Assembly: GCA_013334925.1 (NCBI GenBank)
Contig: JAAXWP010000002.1
Location: 62,001-126,000, forward strand
DNA: 64,000 nucleotides
Reading direction: 5' to 3'
Source of the DNA: Chlorobiaceae bacterium
GTDB taxonomy: Bacteria; Bacteroidota; Chlorobiia; Chlorobiales; Chlorobiaceae
Part shown: one piece after another, positions 17,309 through 30,709 of the stretch
How positions within the stretch are numbered: position 1 is the stretch's first letter
Layout of the letters: every line of letters starts with the position of its first letter
The notes under the pieces: model-generated
Seen by the model: the letters and a program-made list of their open reading frames with translations, nothing else
The model's database searches: none
What the model was told of the DNA's origin: nothing
Position numbers and translations under genes: made by a program

Positions 17309-18604
17309 TCAGTCATCGTCGTGCTCTCGTTCGCTGCGCCCACCTTCCCGACCGTGTTCATCGGCACTCCGGTGACAGCGGATACAATTCTGGAAATTAC
17401 TTATCCCTTCTTTGAGGTGTTCAGCCGCAATCCCCGAACGCGAGTGTTCATGACATCCATAGCAGGTGTAGCTTCTGAAATTTGACGGCTCGGTATGGCA
17501 GGTGCGGCAACCGGTACGATGATCTCCGTCGAGCCTGAAGTAGCGGTCGTGATCGAACCTGGCCGGTTTCCAGCGTTCGGTTCCGTGACAGCTTCCGCAG
17601 CTCGCCTGCAGATCGCTGTGCAGGGTATCTTTGGGGCGCTCCTTACCATGACAGCTCACACACTGCTTACCTGACGCCGCCGCACTGCGATGATCGAACG
17701 TCGCCGGCTTCCAGCGTCCGGTTCCGTGACAGCTTCCGCAACCCGTCTGCAGATCGCTGTGCAGGGTATCCTTGGGGCGGTCACCCACATGACAGCTCAC
17801 ACACTGCTTCCCTGACGCTGCCGCACTGCGATGATCGAACGTCGCCGGTTTCCAGCGTCCGGTTCCGTGACAGCTTCCGCAGCTCGCCTGCAGATCGCTG
17901 TGCAGGGTATCTTTGGGGCGGTCACCCACATGACAGCTCACACACTGTTTCCCTGACGCTGCCGCACTGCGATGATCGAACGTCGCCGGCTTCCAGCGCA
18001 TCGTCGAATGGCACCCTGCGCAGTTCATGTTGATCTGGCGATGTATCGAATCATCAGGTTTTTCCTTTGCGTGGCATGCCAGACAATTCACCGACGTTCC
18101 GCCCTGAAGCATACGATGGTCAAACAGAGCGGATCTCCAGTTTCGGGTATCGTGGCACTGTGCACAACTGCTGCCGAATTGCCGGTGGAGCGAATCCTTG
18201 GGCCGGGATTCGGAATGACAGGCGTTGCATCCGTTCCGGATCGATGCCGGTAAAAGATCATGGCTGAAACTCCTGAGAGATTTTTTCGCATCAGGTCCCT
18301 TGTGATCGGTATGACACTCAAGGCATGAAGAAGGTGAGAGTCCGCGATGAAATGAAACCTTTTTCGATGCGCCCGGCAGCAGTGCACCTGAAACCGACCT
18401 GCTGTCGATCGAATCGGGTCGGTGACATTCGACACATTTCGACGCGGCAGCCCCCCCGAAAGGTACATGACACGCAAGACAATTGTGTTTCAGCTTTTCG
18501 TGGCCGCCCAGCAACGGCCCGGGGTTCAGAGTCAGCTCCGGAAAAGCCAGAAGCACAGCCACAAGCAGGACGGAAAATGCCAGGAAAGCAGTCAGTGGTC
18601 TCAT
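17309..18604 (-). CDS. Multiheme c-type cytochrome (16 CXXCH motifs)
   Basis: 431 aa, N-terminal membrane/signal segment; 16 CXXCH counted; three tandem 47-aa repeats. Confidence 0.9.
   Translation of the reverse strand: MRPLTAFLAFSVLLVAVLLAFPELTLNPGPLLGGHEKLKHNCLACHVPFGGAAASKCVECHRPDSIDSRSVSGALLPGASKKVSFHRGLSPSSCLECHTDHKGPDAKKSLRSFSHDLLPASIRNGCNACHSESRPKDSLHRQFGSSCAQCHDTRNWRSALFDHRMLQGGTSVNCLACHAKEKPDDSIHRQINMNCAGCHSTMRWKPATFDHRSAAASGKQCVSCHVGDRPKDTLHSDLQASCGSCHGTGRWKPATFDHRSAAASGKQCVSCHVGDRPKDTLHSDLQTGCGSCHGTGRWKPATFDHRSAAASGKQCVSCHGKERPKDTLHSDLQASCGSCHGTERWKPARFDHDRYFRLDGDHRTGCRTCHTEPSNFRSYTCYGCHEHSRSGIAAEHLKEGISNFQNCIRCHRSADEHGREGGRSEREHDDD
17563..17999 (-). repeat. 141-bp tandem repeat (about 3 copies) within multiheme cytochrome gene
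   Basis: GATCGCTGTGCAGGGTATC recurs at 17611, 17752 and 17893 (141-bp period); unit RWKPATFDHRSAAASGKQCVSCHVGDRPKDTLHSDLQASCGSCHGTG. Confidence 0.9.
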
Positions 18605-18608
18605 ACCG

Positions 18609-19214
18609 TCACCTCCAGTTCAGAAAAAACGCGATGGACAGGATATGTGCGAGTGTCAACGCCAGAAGAAACGAAACCAGTGGCATGTGAATTGTCCTCC
18701 ATTGTTCCATTGTCTTCACGGTCACCAGATCCCAGAAATATGGCTGATCTACCCTGAAGTCATCAGTTTCCGGAGAGTCTGCAAGACCAAGCTGCTTTTT
18801 CTTCATACGGACCTCTTCTCTCAGCTTTCTGAGCAGGTATTGCCCGACATGACCACTTGCCGTCACCACGAGCATCAGAGTGGTGGCCGCCCAGGGGATC
18901 AACGCGTTGAAATGCACGCCGGAATGTACCATGATCATGAGCGTTCCCACCCATCCTGCGTTACAGTGAATACGCAGAAAGAATTTCATCGTTCCGCTGG
19001 TTACCAGCTTCTGTTTGCGGGCGGAATAGACGAATGAAAATACCAGGAATACCGTACCGACAGGACCCAGATAACGACCGATCCAGGAAAGACCCGCAAC
19101 ATGAAGCAGATAATCGATTGACAGGGCGGCTGCAAGAAGCAGCAGGTAGGATAGAGTGAGCGGAAGGGCCCGCTGAATGAGCACGGATTGCCACATGAGT
19201 CGACAGATATTCAC
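18609..19214 (-). CDS. Cytochrome b-like multi-TM protein, putative quinol/electron-transfer partner
   Basis: 201 aa, several TM helices with IHCNAG, VHSGVHF, SGHVGQY, RTIHMPL histidines; adjacent to multiheme cytochrome. Confidence 0.65.
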   Translation of the reverse strand: MNICRLMWQSVLIQRALPLTLSYLLLLAAALSIDYLLHVAGLSWIGRYLGPVGTVFLVFSFVYSARKQKLVTSGTMKFFLRIHCNAGWVGTLMIMVHSGVHFNALIPWAATTLMLVVTASGHVGQYLLRKLREEVRMKKKQLGLADSPETDDFRVDQPYFWDLVTVKTMEQWRTIHMPLVSFLLALTLAHILSIAFFLNWR

Positions 19215-19286: not shown

Positions 19287-20765
19287 TTAATTCTCAGTGA
19301 GCGGGAAGGTGAGCTGAAATACCGTACCGTGGTTTTCACGACTCGTCACGGCTATGTCTATGTGCTGGAGATCGGCAAGTCTTCTGACAATCGAAAGACC
19401 AAGACCTGAACCGCCGGTGTTCGAACTTCTCGATTCGTCGACCCGGTAGAATCTCTTGAATATGCTCTCCAGTTTCGCTTCGGGAATACCGATGCCATGA
19501 TCCTCGATCACACAAACCGGTCGACCATTCAGGCTATCGATCCGTAACGAAACTCCGGATCCGTCCGCAGAGTACTTGATTGCGTTGGAAAGCATGTTTT
19601 CAAGCATGATCTCGAGCATGGCCGGATCAGCAGCCACATTACCTGCATAGCCGATCGAAAGATCGAGCGTTATGTTCCGCACGGCAGCAATCGGGGTCAT
19701 TCTCGATATCACGGTTTCGATCAACTGGCCGGGATAGAGTAAAACAATATTCGGGCTCGTCGTATCGCTTTCGCAACGGGCAAGCAAAAGCAGCTGGTCG
19801 ATGAGTCGGGCCATACGGTTCAGCTCATCGAGACAGTAACGGATCCGCTCCTCGTAATGCCCTGTGTCACGGGGCTTCCGGACCAGGACATCAAGCGTGC
19901 CTTTAACGACGGCCAGTGGGGTTTTCAGCTCATGCGATGCATCTGCCGTGAATTGCTTTTCGCGCTGGAAAGCATCCTGGAGACGATCGAGCAGTGCATT
20001 GATGGTGACGCTCAGGCGATAGAGCTCGTCCTGATTGGATGGCAACGGCATACGCAAGCCAAGGTTTGCCTGACTTATCGATTCTGCCGTCGAGATAACC
20101 TCCTCGACCGGCTGAATGCTTTTGCCGGCAATCAGACGGGTTACCACAAAAAGCGTCAGAATGACAATGGGGTAGGAAACGAGGACGATATACTTCATGT
20201 CGCGCAACACGATCATGGCACTTTTGAGTGGAACAGCCACGATCAGGTATCCTTCGACCGCTCCGTTACGGCCCACGAGTGGCACCTGCACCTGACGGAG
20301 TGTCGATTGCCCAAGTTCCGAGGTGAAATAACGCACTCCTGCGTAGGAGGGTCTGAAGGTAAGCACGTTCTGTGCGAGGTTTGCCGTCTTGCTGACCACT
20401 CGCCCTGCATTGTCCACGAGCTGGACATACTCCGGATCGATCTCGGCGACTTTCCTGACCTTATGACGGCTTTGATGTCTGCCCTCACGGGCTTCGTCAA
20501 GCCCCATCTCTTTAAGCCGATCGAAATCACACACATCGAGCTCGTGGACATGTGAATCAGAGAGGGTTTCATTCACCTCGTGCCGCAACTCCTCATCGAA
20601 ATGATTGTATACCACTCCGTCAACGGTGAGGAAAATGACCGTAAACACAACAGCCATAAGAATCGCCGATGTTCCGGTGTAATAGAGCGCTATGCGGTTA
20701 CGCAGGCTCATAGCCGGTAACCTCCGGCTTCCATTGATAACCCCGGTACCCGACCGTAGACGCAT
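19287..20765 (-). CDS. Sensor histidine kinase (HAMP, HisKA, HATPase)
   Basis: 492 aa; ADASHELKTPLAVVKGTLDVL, NMLSNAIKYS, GGSGLGLSIVRRLAD; start overlaps the RR stop. Confidence 0.92.
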   Translation of the reverse strand: MRLRSGTGVINGSRRLPAMSLRNRIALYYTGTSAILMAVVFTVIFLTVDGVVYNHFDEELRHEVNETLSDSHVHELDVCDFDRLKEMGLDEAREGRHQSRHKVRKVAEIDPEYVQLVDNAGRVVSKTANLAQNVLTFRPSYAGVRYFTSELGQSTLRQVQVPLVGRNGAVEGYLIVAVPLKSAMIVLRDMKYIVLVSYPIVILTLFVVTRLIAGKSIQPVEEVISTAESISQANLGLRMPLPSNQDELYRLSVTINALLDRLQDAFQREKQFTADASHELKTPLAVVKGTLDVLVRKPRDTGHYEERIRYCLDELNRMARLIDQLLLLARCESDTTSPNIVLLYPGQLIETVISRMTPIAAVRNITLDLSIGYAGNVAADPAMLEIMLENMLSNAIKYSADGSGVSLRIDSLNGRPVCVIEDHGIGIPEAKLESIFKRFYRVDESRSSNTGGSGLGLSIVRRLADLQHIDIAVTSRENHGTVFQLTFPLTEN

Positions 20766-21445
20766 CAGGCCTCCCTGACGTTACTCTTCACTATATAGCC
20801 GATCCCCCTCATGGTCTGAATGAGACCATCGCAACCCGCAGCTTCGAGTTTGCGCCGGAGAAAATTGATATAGACATCGATAACGGAGGTATCGGAATAG
20901 AAATGGATATCCCACACATGCTCGATGATACGGCTTCGTGAACAGGGACGGTCCTTGTTGCGCACCAGGTATTCGAGAAGGGAGAACTCCTTCGGTGTCA
21001 GAGTCAATTCAAGGTCATTGCAGAAGACCTGGTGTGTTACCGGATTGATGGTGAGCGGCCCGGCGGAGAGAACCTCTCCGCCCTGACCTGCACTCCTGAG
21101 TTGCACCCGTATACGGGCAAGCACCTCTTCGAATTCAAAAGGCTTCCTGATGTAGTCATTGGCTCCGCTCTCAAGGCCAAACACCACATCTTCAAGTGTA
21201 TCCCTGGCGGTAAGAAACAGAATCGGTACGCTGGAAGATGACTGGCGGATATGCCGGCAGACATCGATTCCGCTGAGCCCGGGAATCATCCAGTCCACCA
21301 TGATCAGGTCATAGTCATTGGTCATGGCAAGATCGAGGCCACTTTTGCCATCATAAGCGACATCGACAGCATAGCACTCCTCCTCGAGGCCCTCCTTGAG
21401 AAACCTGGCGATTCCCGGTTCATCTTCGATAATGAGCAGTCTCAT
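20765..21445 (-). CDS. OmpR/PhoB-family response regulator
   Basis: 226 aa; MRLLIIEDEPGIARFL, MVDWMIPGLSG, winged-helix LTPKEFSLLEYLVRNKDRPCSR. Confidence 0.94.
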   Translation of the reverse strand: MRLLIIEDEPGIARFLKEGLEEECYAVDVAYDGKSGLDLAMTNDYDLIMVDWMIPGLSGIDVCRHIRQSSSSVPILFLTARDTLEDVVFGLESGANDYIRKPFEFEEVLARIRVQLRSAGQGGEVLSAGPLTINPVTHQVFCNDLELTLTPKEFSLLEYLVRNKDRPCSRSRIIEHVWDIHFYSDTSVIDVYINFLRRKLEAAGCDGLIQTMRGIGYIVKSNVREA

Positions 21446-21457
21446 GCACGATTCCGT

Positions 21458-21994
21458 TTAATCACGATCTCCATCACGATCTGATTTGCCATCCCCATCT
21501 CCGAAAAGTAATGCGAGAACCGCCCGGCTCTCTTTGCCGTTACGGGCAGCAATCTCCTTCAGGGTCATCGATTTGTCAACTGCTGATATCCCCTTTGCCG
21601 AAAGCAGGCCCGCAAGTTCTTCGGGAGTTTTCTTTGCCACCAGAGCAACCGTTTCCAGAGAGGAGGACTCCAGTGCAACTGCAGCAGCCATCACGGTGTG
21701 CTTTCCGCCTTCCTCTTTTTCACCGAACACCGGTAAAAGAGAGCTCACGGTGACCAGTGCTGCAACACCTATGATGACGAGCGCCGGTTTTCTTGAAAAG
21801 TAACCGGTGAACGCCTTCCAGTTTGCAAGCAGGTGAAGGGCAACACCGCCAACGAGCAACCAGCCAAGCCATTTGTGTACCGGCTCTACCGCTCCCATTT
21901 CAATATCAAAAAAAATCAGCAGTCCGGTAACAGCGGAAATGATAAACGAGCCGATAGCCAGCGGTGTCGCCCAGGTTTTAATCGATGAATTCAT
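21458..21994 (-). CDS. DUF4405-like membrane protein with acidic C-terminal tail
   Basis: 178 aa; VEPVHKWLGWLLVGGVALHLLANWKAFTGYF; tail GDGDGKSDRDGDRD. Confidence 0.65.
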   Translation of the reverse strand: MNSSIKTWATPLAIGSFIISAVTGLLIFFDIEMGAVEPVHKWLGWLLVGGVALHLLANWKAFTGYFSRKPALVIIGVAALVTVSSLLPVFGEKEEGGKHTVMAAAVALESSSLETVALVAKKTPEELAGLLSAKGISAVDKSMTLKEIAARNGKESRAVLALLFGDGDGKSDRDGDRD

Positions 21995-26369: not shown

Positions 26370-29162
26370 ATGTATAAAAACATTTCTCGTCGCCAGTTCC
26401 TCAAGGTTGCGGGCGTCATGGGAGGTATGTCTCTGTTACGCCCTGTCTGGAGTCTCGGTCAGGCATCCGTGGCATCGGATATCGGCTCTGCTGGCGGATC
26501 GGTGACGTGGGTACCAAGCATCTGCAATTTCTGCTCGTCGTTCTGTGACATCAAGGTCGCGACCAGGGAAACCGACGGAATCAGACGCGCCGTCAAAATT
26601 GAAGGAAATCCCGAAAGCCCGCTGAACCGTGGACGAATCTGTGCCCGCGGTCAGGCCGGCCTCAGGCAGACCTACGACCCTAACCGCCTCAAGCAGCCAT
26701 TGATCCGTGTAAAAGGGAGCAAACGTGGCGAATGGAACTTCAGGGCGGCCACCTGGGAAGAGGCTTATGCGTTGATCGCCGACAAACTCGGAAAAGTCAA
26801 TCCCTGGGAGATCAGTCTCGTTGGCGGCTGGACCGCCTGTGTCTCCTATATGCACTTCAGCCTTCCGTTCGTCCAGACCCTTCAGATACCCAACATCGTC
26901 GCATCTCCTCTTCAGCATTGTGTTACCGCCGGACACCTCGGCACCGACCTGGTCACGGGCAACTTCAACGTACACGACGAAGTGCTGGCGGATTTTGAAA
27001 ACGCACGATACATCCTTTTCAGCCTGAACAATGCATCGGTAGCCGCGATTTCGACCGCCCGAGCCGTCCGGTTCGGCCAGGCGAAGAAAAACGGTGCCAA
27101 AGTGGTCTGTCTTGACCCGAGAATGGGTGAACTCGCATCGAAAGCAGACGAATGGATTCCGGTCAGACCAGGTACCGACCACGCCTTTTTTCTGGCGCTG
27201 CTCCATACGCTGCTCAGAGAAAAACTCTACGACGCAAGATTCGTTTCAAGCCATTCAAACGCACCGTTCCTGGCATACAGAGACGAAAGCGGAAACGTGC
27301 ATCTTGCCGCAGATGCCGGCAATAACGGCAAAACGACGGCATACTATGTCTACGATTCGGTCAGCCGCGGTGTACGTGCCGTTCCGGCTTACAGCAACAC
27401 CAACGAACAGGCCTCAGGTGGCGGACGCATCGAACCGGCACTTAACGCCCCTGAAGGCCTCAGCTGGAAAGGCAAGTCGGTCAAAACCGTTTTCGACTTC
27501 TTTATCGAAGAATCAGCTCCGTTCACACCTGAATGGGCCGCTGAGATTACGGATGTCCCGGCCGAAACCATTCGCCGGATCGCCATCGAGTTTGGCCAGG
27601 CCCGACCGGCTCTGGTCGACCCCGGCTGGATGGGTGCACGGTATCATCATCTGATCGGCCAGCGCCGGCTCCAGGCCATCATTCAGACGCTTGTCGGTGG
27701 CATCGACAAACCAGGAGGCTGGCTGATGAGTGGCGAGCACCATCACAAGTCGGCGAAGTCCTGGGAAGCGATCCGTAGCGGCAAGAACGAAACAAACGTG
27801 CCTCCGGTCGAGCGTCCGGGCATGGGCTTCGCGTTCGGACTGCTCGACATTTTCGGAAATCCCGCTTCCTGGCAGCATGGCAAACCGGCGTTCTCTTTCG
27901 CCTGGGCCATGGAACAGCAGAAACAGGGAAAACCGTCCGCGTTCCTGCCGGCGATGGCCGACACCGGTCTGCTCGAAGCAGTTAAGGGCGAACTCAGTTT
28001 CAACGGCGAACCCTATCGCATCAAGGCGGTTATTCTCAACGCCGCCAACCCGATACGCCACTATTTCCCGGCAAAGCGATGGGAGGAGATCCTCTCCAGC
28101 GATAACCTGGATCTCGTCGTAGCCATCGACGTTCTGCCATCGGATACCACCATGTATGCCGATGTGATCCTGCCGAACCACACCTACCTGGAACGGAACG
28201 AGCCGCTGCTCTACCCCCTCGGTCCGAATACCGGCCTCGGGTACACAACCCGCCTGAGGGCGATCGATCCGCTTTACGATACCAGGGACACTTCGGATAT
28301 CCTTTGCGAAATTGCTGCGAGAATGGGCAAACTCGAGCCGTACCTCGAGGGTATCGCCGAGTATGCCGGACTCGACGTCCAGCTGCTTAAACGCGAGGTT
28401 GCAGCAGCCCGACAGGCGCGCAAACCACTGAACGAAGCGTTCCTCAGAACTGCGTACGAAGCCATGGGCCGATTTGCCGGAGAGATGACCGGCAGGGAGA
28501 TGAGCGCCACGGAGGTGGAATCCGTGATTCGAACGAAAGGGGTGCTCATGCTCAAGGATGCCGATGCCGTTCTTGCCGATTGGAACCTGCCCGGTAAATT
28601 GCCGGCGCCAACCATGTCCGGTCGAATGGAGCTGTTCAGCCCCATTCTGCAATCCTTTGCCGAAAAGGCTGGTCCAAGCCCACTGTTCAACCCTGTGCTC
28701 GGCTATGTGCCCAGAGTGGTCAGCGACAACGGTGATAAAACGACACTGGCAGACAACGAATTCTACTTTACCTACGGGAAGGTACCGGTGGTCTCACACG
28801 CATCGACGAACAACAACAATGCCCTGCTCGCTGCAGTCACCAATCCCAAGAAAGGGGCATTCATCGGCTTGTGGATGAATGCAGGAAAGGCAGCCAGACT
28901 CGGTCTCACCGATGGCCAGTCGGTCGAGGTCACCAATCTCAGATATGGCCCGAAAGTGCAGGCGACCCTTTTCACGACGGAGATGATCCGTCCCGATACG
29001 GTGTTCCTGCCATCGGCGTTCGGCAGCAAAAACAGGAAACTCAGCGTTGCCGGAGGCAAGGGCACGGCACTGAACGAGCTCATGCCTTACAGTATAGAGC
29101 CGATTGCCGCGTCGTTCATGTCCCAGGAATTCACGGTCAGCGTCAGGCCGATCAACAGTTAA
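26370..29162 (+). CDS. Tat-exported molybdopterin oxidoreductase catalytic subunit (PsrA/PhsA-like, polysulfide-reductase-like complex)
   Basis: 930 aa; SRRQFLKVAGV Tat motif, CNFCSSFCDIK...GRICARGQAG [4Fe-4S] site, molybdopterin-binding regions. Confidence 0.9.
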   Translation: MYKNISRRQFLKVAGVMGGMSLLRPVWSLGQASVASDIGSAGGSVTWVPSICNFCSSFCDIKVATRETDGIRRAVKIEGNPESPLNRGRICARGQAGLRQTYDPNRLKQPLIRVKGSKRGEWNFRAATWEEAYALIADKLGKVNPWEISLVGGWTACVSYMHFSLPFVQTLQIPNIVASPLQHCVTAGHLGTDLVTGNFNVHDEVLADFENARYILFSLNNASVAAISTARAVRFGQAKKNGAKVVCLDPRMGELASKADEWIPVRPGTDHAFFLALLHTLLREKLYDARFVSSHSNAPFLAYRDESGNVHLAADAGNNGKTTAYYVYDSVSRGVRAVPAYSNTNEQASGGGRIEPALNAPEGLSWKGKSVKTVFDFFIEESAPFTPEWAAEITDVPAETIRRIAIEFGQARPALVDPGWMGARYHHLIGQRRLQAIIQTLVGGIDKPGGWLMSGEHHHKSAKSWEAIRSGKNETNVPPVERPGMGFAFGLLDIFGNPASWQHGKPAFSFAWAMEQQKQGKPSAFLPAMADTGLLEAVKGELSFNGEPYRIKAVILNAANPIRHYFPAKRWEEILSSDNLDLVVAIDVLPSDTTMYADVILPNHTYLERNEPLLYPLGPNTGLGYTTRLRAIDPLYDTRDTSDILCEIAARMGKLEPYLEGIAEYAGLDVQLLKREVAAARQARKPLNEAFLRTAYEAMGRFAGEMTGREMSATEVESVIRTKGVLMLKDADAVLADWNLPGKLPAPTMSGRMELFSPILQSFAEKAGPSPLFNPVLGYVPRVVSDNGDKTTLADNEFYFTYGKVPVVSHASTNNNNALLAAVTNPKKGAFIGLWMNAGKAARLGLTDGQSVEVTNLRYGPKVQATLFTTEMIRPDTVFLPSAFGSKNRKLSVAGGKGTALNELMPYSIEPIAASFMSQEFTVSVRPINS

Positions 29163-29180
29163 CCCGAGACCCAGATACAC

Positions 29181-29780
29181 ATGGCCCGTTATGGAATGAT
29201 CATGGATTTGCGGACCTGCGTCGGATGCCAGGCCTGCATGGCTGCATGCGCCACCGAAAACCAGACACCGTTCTGGAGCGGAAAATTCCGCACGCACGTC
29301 GAGGATAAAACCAGAGGCGCTTTCCCCGATGTAACGAGGGAGTTGCTGCCAAGACTCTGCATGCACTGTGATAACACCCCATGCCTGTCGGCATGCCCCA
29401 CTGGCGCAACCTTCATGAACAGGGATGGTGTCGTACTGGTCAATTTCGACCGATGCATCGGCTGTTATGCCTGCTGCGTAGCCTGTCCGTACGATGCCCG
29501 ATATCCCTATGACCGTGAAGATGTCGACAGAGAGCACGAGCTGTATGGCAAAACCGTCACGCATGAAATGCCGCACGTCGACAAATGCACCTTCTGCACA
29601 CACCGGGTGTCGGAACATCGCGAACCGGCTTGCGTCAGCACCTGCCCGACCAATACCCGCATCTTCGGCAATCTCGACGATGCAGCGAGCGAAGTGCACA
29701 AGCTGGCAGTCAGCGGAAAAGCCCGTGTGCTCAACGAGGGCCTGGGAACTTCACCGAAAGTAATGTACATCCCATCGTAA
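29181..29780 (+). CDS. Four-cluster ferredoxin-type electron-transfer subunit (PsrB-like)
   Basis: 199 aa; CVGCQACMAAC, CMHCDNTPCLSAC, CIGCYACCVAC, CTFCTHR...CVSTC. Confidence 0.93.
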   Translation: MARYGMIMDLRTCVGCQACMAACATENQTPFWSGKFRTHVEDKTRGAFPDVTRELLPRLCMHCDNTPCLSACPTGATFMNRDGVVLVNFDRCIGCYACCVACPYDARYPYDREDVDREHELYGKTVTHEMPHVDKCTFCTHRVSEHREPACVSTCPTNTRIFGNLDDAASEVHKLAVSGKARVLNEGLGTSPKVMYIPS

Positions 29781-29794
29781 AGGAGGATATCCAT

Positions 29795-30709
29795 ATGACG
29801 TTCGTTCATCAGGAAGTATGGCACTGGCAGATCGCGACCTACCTGTTCCTGGGAGGTCTGGGCGGCGCCACTTTCGCCATCAGCGCCGTTCTCCACCTCT
29901 TTGAAGGTTGTGACCGGAAAATGCTTTCCGTCGCCATCATGTCGTCGATCGCCTTTCTGGTCATCGGCACCATTTTTCTGCTCGCCGACATGCTGCAGCC
30001 CCTGAAAGCCATCTATGCACTGACCAATCCACGATCATGGATCTTCTGGGGTGTCATCTTCATCAATTTCTACTTCGTTTCGGCCATTGCCTATGTCATC
30101 CCTCTTCTGGAGACCTGGCCGCAATTGCTGCCGATCATCCGGAAGATTCCCCAGCCTGTCCTGAGTCTTCTGGAGCGCTTCAACAAACTTGCTGCGCTGA
30201 CCGGTTCAGCCGCTGGATTTCTGGTCGCGATCTATACCGGTCTGCTCATTTCAGCCGCACCAGCGATCAGTTTCTGGAATACGCCAGCCCTTCCACTGCT
30301 GTTTGTCATTTCAGGGTTTTCGACCGGTGCCGCCTATCTCCTGCTGCTGTCGACTTTCTCGAAAAATGAGAGCGCATGGAAAATCACGGCAAAACTTGAA
30401 CAGCTCGACGCAGTCCTCATCGTCAGCGAGCTGATCATCCTGGGCGCCTATTTCAATTTCGCCCTCTTCCTGCCAACCGGAGCCAGGGCCTCGGCCGAGT
30501 ATCTGTTCCACAGCCCGGTATTCCTCGTCGGGTTCTTCATTGCAGGCCTGATTGTGCCACTGGCCATCGAAACCTATGGCATCTTCTTCAGCGGGCATTC
30601 AAAAAAATCGGGATCTCTTCTTGTCGCCGCCAGTGCACTGGTACTTGTCGGCGGATACCTGCTGCGTATCTACGTCCTCAAGGCAGGCATTTTCCAGTAC
30701 CCGTGGTAA
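29795..30709 (+). CDS. NrfD/PsrC-family membrane quinone-interacting subunit
   Basis: ATG at 29795 after aaggagg RBS; MTFVHQEVWHWQIATYLFLGGLGGATFAISA typical NrfD start. Confidence 0.9.
   Translation: MTFVHQEVWHWQIATYLFLGGLGGATFAISAVLHLFEGCDRKMLSVAIMSSIAFLVIGTIFLLADMLQPLKAIYALTNPRSWIFWGVIFINFYFVSAIAYVIPLLETWPQLLPIIRKIPQPVLSLLERFNKLAALTGSAAGFLVAIYTGLLISAAPAISFWNTPALPLLFVISGFSTGAAYLLLLSTFSKNESAWKITAKLEQLDAVLIVSELIILGAYFNFALFLPTGARASAEYLFHSPVFLVGFFIAGLIVPLAIETYGIFFSGHSKKSGSLLVAASALVLVGGYLLRIYVLKAGIFQYPW

Follow-up and report, generated by a model that had tools for sequence, protein, structure and literature searches.

The window analysed here, a 64-kb stretch of a Chlorobium genome (a 2.73-Mb draft in 101 contigs), carries on its minus strand an open reading frame of 431 amino acids (positions 17309-18604; apo-protein of 47 kDa) with 16 CXXCH motifs, or 26.9 residues per heme. 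The motif count and Pfam matches above cut-off to Cytochrome_C7 (PF14522, 1.2e-19), Cytochrom_CIII (PF02085) and Cytochrom_c3_2 (PF14537) point to a multiheme c-type cytochrome (hereafter MHC) with class III/c7-like modules; the 16-heme cytochrome of a preliminary description, drawn up from the letters of the DNA, was thus correctly recognised and can now be placed on the minus strand. A hydrophobic helix at residues 3-21 by hydropathy (18542-18598), without an obvious cleavage site, likely serves as an inner-membrane anchor. The same region (helix 2-20) is the sole confident part of the AlphaFold model: structure prediction of the heme chain, a check proposed beforehand, returned a mean pLDDT of 57.8 and was otherwise unusable, and the model was kept out of the fold search. 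The genome also encodes dsrA, which fits the expectation for a sulfur-oxidising green sulfur bacterium, and elsewhere in the window (26370-30709) co-directional genes for a molybdopterin oxidoreductase, an iron-sulfur protein of the DsrO/TtrB kind and a membrane subunit that appears NrfD-like look like a polysulfide/thiosulfate-reductase-like complex.

The anchor and hemes 1-5 form an N-terminal cap (18140-18604) whose heme spacing of 15/37/32/21 is near-invariant across Chlorobiaceae. It is followed by four units of two hemes each and by a C-terminal cap (17309-17572) of three hemes, spaced 30/15/26, with an acidic, His-rich tail. Units 2 (17855-17995), 3 (17714-17854) and 4 (17573-17713), delimited by Tandem Repeats Finder and in-frame comparison, are near-identical copies of 47 amino acids, with DNA identities among them of 95.7, 92.9 and 90.1% and variation at 15 of 141 sites, which supports the recent tandem duplication or homogenisation already suspected. 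Six of the changes in unit 4 are grouped within 8 bp, the basis for considering gene conversion. Tandem Repeats Finder reports this as the only tandem array in the 64-kb window (17550-17998, period 141, 3.2 copies, 92% matches, score 777). The near-identical 141-bp, two-heme units first placed at 17611/17752/17893 are therefore real and belong to the same array, read in a different register from the coding units at 17573/17714/17855; a fourth, older member of 48 amino acids, diverged to about 43% identity (unit 1, 17996-18139), belongs to the array as well. The longest exact in-register repeat in the gene is 61 bp, so ordinary reads should resolve the array.

A ribosome-binding-like GGAGG stands immediately 5' of the MHC ATG, and a gap of 4 bp separates this ATG from the end of a gene for a five-helix inner-membrane protein (IMP; 18609-19214, minus strand), whose likely start is Met7, near 19196. 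The IMP matches no Pfam family above cut-off. Its AlphaFold model (pLDDT 85) has helices at 3-39, 43-67, 76-100, 105-141 and 157-198, and its sequence holds two HX13H motifs (H83/H97 and H176/H190), an SGHVG at 120-124 and W172. Across 52 homologues eight columns are invariant, namely the four His, S-G-G and W172; the latter lies four residues before H176, and the equivalent position on TM3 is not Trp. A fold search with the IMP model gave nothing significant, with cytochrome b561, b6f and NOX entries only at E >1, and a few homologues match Ferric_reduct, cytochrome b561 or DUF4405 weakly. We regard the IMP as a putative di-heme-b protein. Further upstream, co-directional on the minus strand, lie genes for a sensor histidine kinase (19287-20765), nearest to the CusS/CopS heavy-metal type (TIGR01386, 7e-73), and for an OmpR/CopR-type response regulator (20765-21445; TIGR01387, 2.7e-63), both scoring under the curated cut-offs (246 bits against 292.6 and 213.5 against 279.2, respectively), and then one for a DUF4405 membrane protein (21458-21994; PF14358, 1.3e-8) with an HX13H of its own (H40/H54), possibly a second b-heme protein. 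The order DUF4405, response regulator, kinase, IMP, MHC is shared by the window and several relatives.

An IMP homologue that carries SGXXG and both HX13H motifs lies directly upstream of MHC in nearly all loci, and the pair occurs in Chlorobi, Bacteroidota, Nitrospirota, Magnetococcales, Burkholderiales and Chloroflexi; within Chlorobiaceae, 71 of 86 genomes have the IMP. A search of viral contigs gave no match, and plasmids gave distant matches only (<60% identity). In three proteobacterial loci (L074, L088, L100) the gene before IMP encodes an FAD/NAD/2Fe-2S reductase, which suggests coupling to NAD(P)H; in L069 this position is taken by a cytochrome b561 and in L105 by a pyridine nucleotide oxidoreductase. 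The conserved pairing, the IMP motifs and these reductase and cytochrome neighbours make passage of electrons through the inner membrane the favoured role. One non-Chlorobi locus (L085, 1-6630) has genes for IMP, a 10-heme cytochrome, a TPR protein, 20-heme and 9-heme cytochromes and a probable outer-membrane barrel in a row; the C-terminus of its 9-heme protein has a motif resembling the Chlorobium C-terminal cap. In a record titled as a Bifidobacterium breve MAG (L099) the IMP and MHC genes are Flavobacteria-like, and the bin is probably mislabelled.

The number of hemes differs widely among relatives, and it does so in steps of two. Complete homologues share the spacing 14-15/37/32/20-22 for hemes 1-5 and 30/15/26 for the last three, with n repeats of about 25-28/20-23 between, so that the caps stay fixed at five and three hemes and n, the number of units of about 47 amino acids (46-49), runs from 0 to 6 across Chlorobiaceae. 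Among 63 complete Chlorobiaceae genes, most of them from draft MAGs in which repeat number can be miscounted, 8, 9, 10, 12, 14, 16, 18 and 20 hemes were found in 3, 1, 19, 7, 16, 11, 4 and 2 genes, respectively, an even number in 62 of the 63. In the nine-heme exception (L072, probably G075) one CXXCH has apparently been lost, and in L054 (probably G084) the array is broken by a frameshift, through decay or a sequencing error. Some genomes hold two MHC copies of unequal length, with 16 and 10 hemes in G012 (L004, L019) and 14 and 10 in CAITSZ (L042, L071). The isolate C. ferrooxidans DSM 13031 has 18 hemes, and the single-contig genomes G001 and G024 have 10 and 16, the latter with near-identical units.

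On trees built from the caps and the IMP, with the repeats left out, parsimony requires at least 21 changes of heme number among 44 genes and at least 32 among 63. Sister genes differ with 16 versus 14 hemes (G024 and G025; cap DNA 94.5% identical), 10 versus 12 (G035 and G039; 95.9%) and 12 versus 16 (G042 and G076; 94.2%), and two further sisters (L043 and L090; 87% protein identity) have 14 and 8. Heme number thus shifts repeatedly and in a lineage-specific manner, in whole two-heme units and even between sister species. The variation that had been suggested for strains was found among related genomes, where the closest pairs are sister species whose cap DNA is 94-96% identical; since heme number varies from 8 to 20 among the relatives, the contrary picture named at the outset, one repeat number and diverged repeats in all related genomes, does not hold.

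The makeup of the arrays fits a tandem gain and loss of units, through unequal recombination or slippage. For 52 of 101 repeat units the nearest unit lies within the same gene, while for 40 of 44 non-repeated core units (hemes 4-5) it is the core unit of a different genome. Among the 40 genes that hold more than one unit, 18 have at least one pair of units at least 90% identical. Between the sisters G056 (16 hemes) and G034 (14 hemes), units 2 and 3 of the former both match unit 2 of the latter. A higher-order period of 276 bp (93%) in the single-contig G024, equal to two units, indicates that blocks above one unit duplicate too. Gene conversion may add to these changes. Arrays can also stay stable: C. 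ferrooxidans and L035, each with an 18-heme gene, have five diverged units that are still in register.

The units are also under constraint. In 157 of 157, one His stands between the two CXXCH and another follows the second, and the number of extra His rises with the number of hemes with a slope of 1.00 (r 0.98), a relation partly expected from the homology of the units. Pooled over 37 pairs of similar adjacent units, dN/dS is 0.16. With the hemes and His kept throughout and dN/dS this low, the units look like functional modules of two hemes each and not like decaying repeats. The extra His are candidate axial ligands, and their stoichiometry would fit bis-His ligation of hemes that are predicted to be covalently bound.

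From these features we think it probable that MHC and the IMP form a conserved pair for electron transfer, in which MHC is the periplasmic, membrane-anchored cytochrome and would act as a fast-evolving, modular heme chain. The IMP would take electrons across the inner membrane or out of it, probably in a quinone-linked manner, and MHC would carry them through the periplasm; heme attachment, b-heme binding by the IMP, periplasmic location, the direction of flow and a chain-like arrangement of the hemes should be taken as predictions. The fixed five-heme and three-heme caps bracket the array of two-heme units. Because a unit brings two CXXCH and two candidate ligand His, slippage or unequal recombination that duplicates one in tandem or deletes one, in frame, would gain or lose two complete hemes in a single step.

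One hypothesis on the number of units sees the array as a periplasmic wire of tunable length, in which this number is selected to bridge a lineage-specific gap between the IMP and an outer partner. If the hemes were packed as in MtrA, one unit would span about 1.8 nm and 8-20 hemes about 6-17 nm. We hold this to be rather unlikely, and a considerably better chance, somewhat short of even, is given to the same IMP-MHC module with an effectively neutral heme number, in which slippage lets the array drift and every length of about 8-20 hemes would work, for instance because MHC would store electrons, or carry them through the periplasm while docking loosely, and would not be a wire of fixed distance. 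The very many changes of heme number, the lack of a significant association between it and the presence of the candidate outer partner, and the occurrence of both contraction (8 hemes) and expansion (20) among close relatives are in line with neutral length, whereas the purifying selection on the unit sequence, the retention of both hemes and both His in every unit and the persistence of five diverged in-register units in the 18-heme genes speak against it. Selection and retention do show that the units are functional; that their number matters does not follow.

The partner that the wire hypothesis would call for could be a protein of the Cyc2 type, a fused outer-membrane cytochrome-porin with one heme. 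A profile of Cyc2-like one-heme cytochrome-porins, searched in the 86 Chlorobiaceae genomes, matched 63, including the window's own genome. Cyc2-like and IMP/MHC genes occur together in 59 genomes, IMP alone in 13, Cyc2-like alone in 4 and neither in 10 (Fisher p 1.6e-4, with shared ancestry ignored), where G009 was scored as IMP-positive through its cytochrome because its contig stops before the IMP. About 610-650 bp ahead of IMP, and in its orientation, G024 and G025 carry a Cyc2-like gene together with a small cytochrome c. We infer that the Cyc2-like protein may be the outer partner of IMP-MHC. A link between heme number and the presence of the Cyc2-like gene, which had seemed strong at the level of the genus (of 5 genomes that lack the gene, 4 have 10 hemes), was dropped, as it is not significant across the family (Mann-Whitney p 0.077) or on independent phylogenetic pairs (median p 0.5-0.63). 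In the window's own genome the Cyc2-like gene, on contig C31 (L124, 457-1749; L113, 1-2517), is a few kb from a long multi-domain class-I-type cytochrome c, possibly a second electron-transfer locus.

Other outer-membrane routes were sought as well. The 5-kb flanks of Chlorobiaceae loci contain neither a porin nor an extracellular multiheme cytochrome, and matches to MtrB-type porins in Chlorobiaceae were discarded as short C-terminal ones within frames of 800-1100 amino acids. The window's own genome was searched by individual queries: an MtrB-type porin (PF11854) gave only a partial match under the cut-off, a 20-heme partner protein of another bacterium found the window's MHC gene as its sole match, and the search for a second large c3/c7-type multiheme cytochrome returned only a multi-domain class-I-type cytochrome.

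Known systems offer partial parallels. In PCC3 and PCC4, porin-cytochrome systems of iron oxidisers, the inner-membrane proteins have WX3HX13H on TM3 and again on TM5, SGXXG on TM4 and five TM helices in all (He et al. 2017, PMC5566968), and PCC3 cytochromes, with internal heme-bearing repeats and a variable heme number on record, have been proposed to span the periplasm (PMC5566968, PMC10734462); their extracellular members have 10-35 hemes and their periplasmic ones 21, 24 or 27, with a median of 26 residues per heme (PMC5566968; Gallionellaceae survey PMC10734462). Judged from the published motif description, the Chlorobium IMP resembles these proteins in its five TM helices, HX13H on TM3 and TM5 and SGXXG on TM4, and MHC resembles PCC3 cytochromes in its few residues per heme (26.9 versus a median of 26), internal heme-bearing repeats and variable heme number. 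However, the Chlorobium IMP is shorter (201 versus about 300 amino acids) and lacks the first conserved Trp (TM3), no porin or extracellular multiheme cytochrome neighbours the locus, and MHC has 8-20 hemes in steps of two. With PCC4 (PMC5566968) the locus shares an IMP and periplasmic multiheme cytochromes and the absence of an extracellular one, but PCC4 has a porin and separate 4-, 5- and 10-heme cytochromes in place of a single gene of variable length. Cyc2, which co-occurs and lies near the MHC locus in G024 and G025, is a separate one-heme protein.

It is very improbable that MHC belongs instead to the MtrA/DmsE-type decaheme or HmcA-type 16-heme systems with their usual partners. The family profile matches the sixteen-heme HmcA with its class-III-like modules (PDB 2e84, the top PDB match, 1.1e-18) and MtrA in 6r2q (9e-8), and the ten hemes of MtrA in MtrCAB (PDB 6R2Q) form an 80 A chain (PMC7198977), a structural precedent for a wire. 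Yet the scores against the DmsE family (TIGR03508, 56.2 bits) and HmcA (NF045713, 30.8 bits) are far from the curated cut-offs of 192.2 and 400 bits, the heme number varies, and the partner is the IMP, with no MtrB or Hmc operon partners seen. MtrA sits inside the MtrB barrel whereas MHC has an N-terminal anchor and no MtrB partner, and HmcA, a longer protein, belongs to the Hmc complex found in sulfate reducers. Chain 6r2q_A is listed as a cystathionine beta-synthase, a name that looks wrong, as 6R2Q is the Shewanella baltica Mtr complex.

That collapsed or expanded repeats in draft assemblies imitate the variation is barely credible: several MAG contigs do stop inside the MHC gene or array (L005, L036, L053, L058/L078, L062, L064, L065, L067, L091), so that some draft heme counts are uncertain and can be truncated, but the single-contig G001 and G024 and the isolate C. 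ferrooxidans also differ in heme number, the longest exact repeat of the window gene is short, and the single contig of G024, with 16 hemes and near-identical units, shows that the variation is no assembly artefact.

Variation of heme number in multiheme cytochromes is known, mostly described over broad protein clusters. We found no report in the open-access literature of such variation for the MHC gene in green sulfur bacteria. What appears new here, as a variant of the PCC3 theme, is a quantised change by two hemes between close species, in one gene and in a porin-less green sulfur setting: one largely syntenic gene, its caps fixed and its partner conserved, changes by two-heme modules between sister species. 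If the array were a tunable wire, the instability of its repeats would be an evolutionary tuning device for electron-transfer distance. With its 8-20 hemes the family provides a natural length series in which one can ask if the number of hemes affects the rate, the distance or the storage in electron transfer. At the same time, a widespread and unannotated IMP-MHC module is now placed in the green sulfur bacteria, whose route for electrons between the photosystem and the outside is unsettled.
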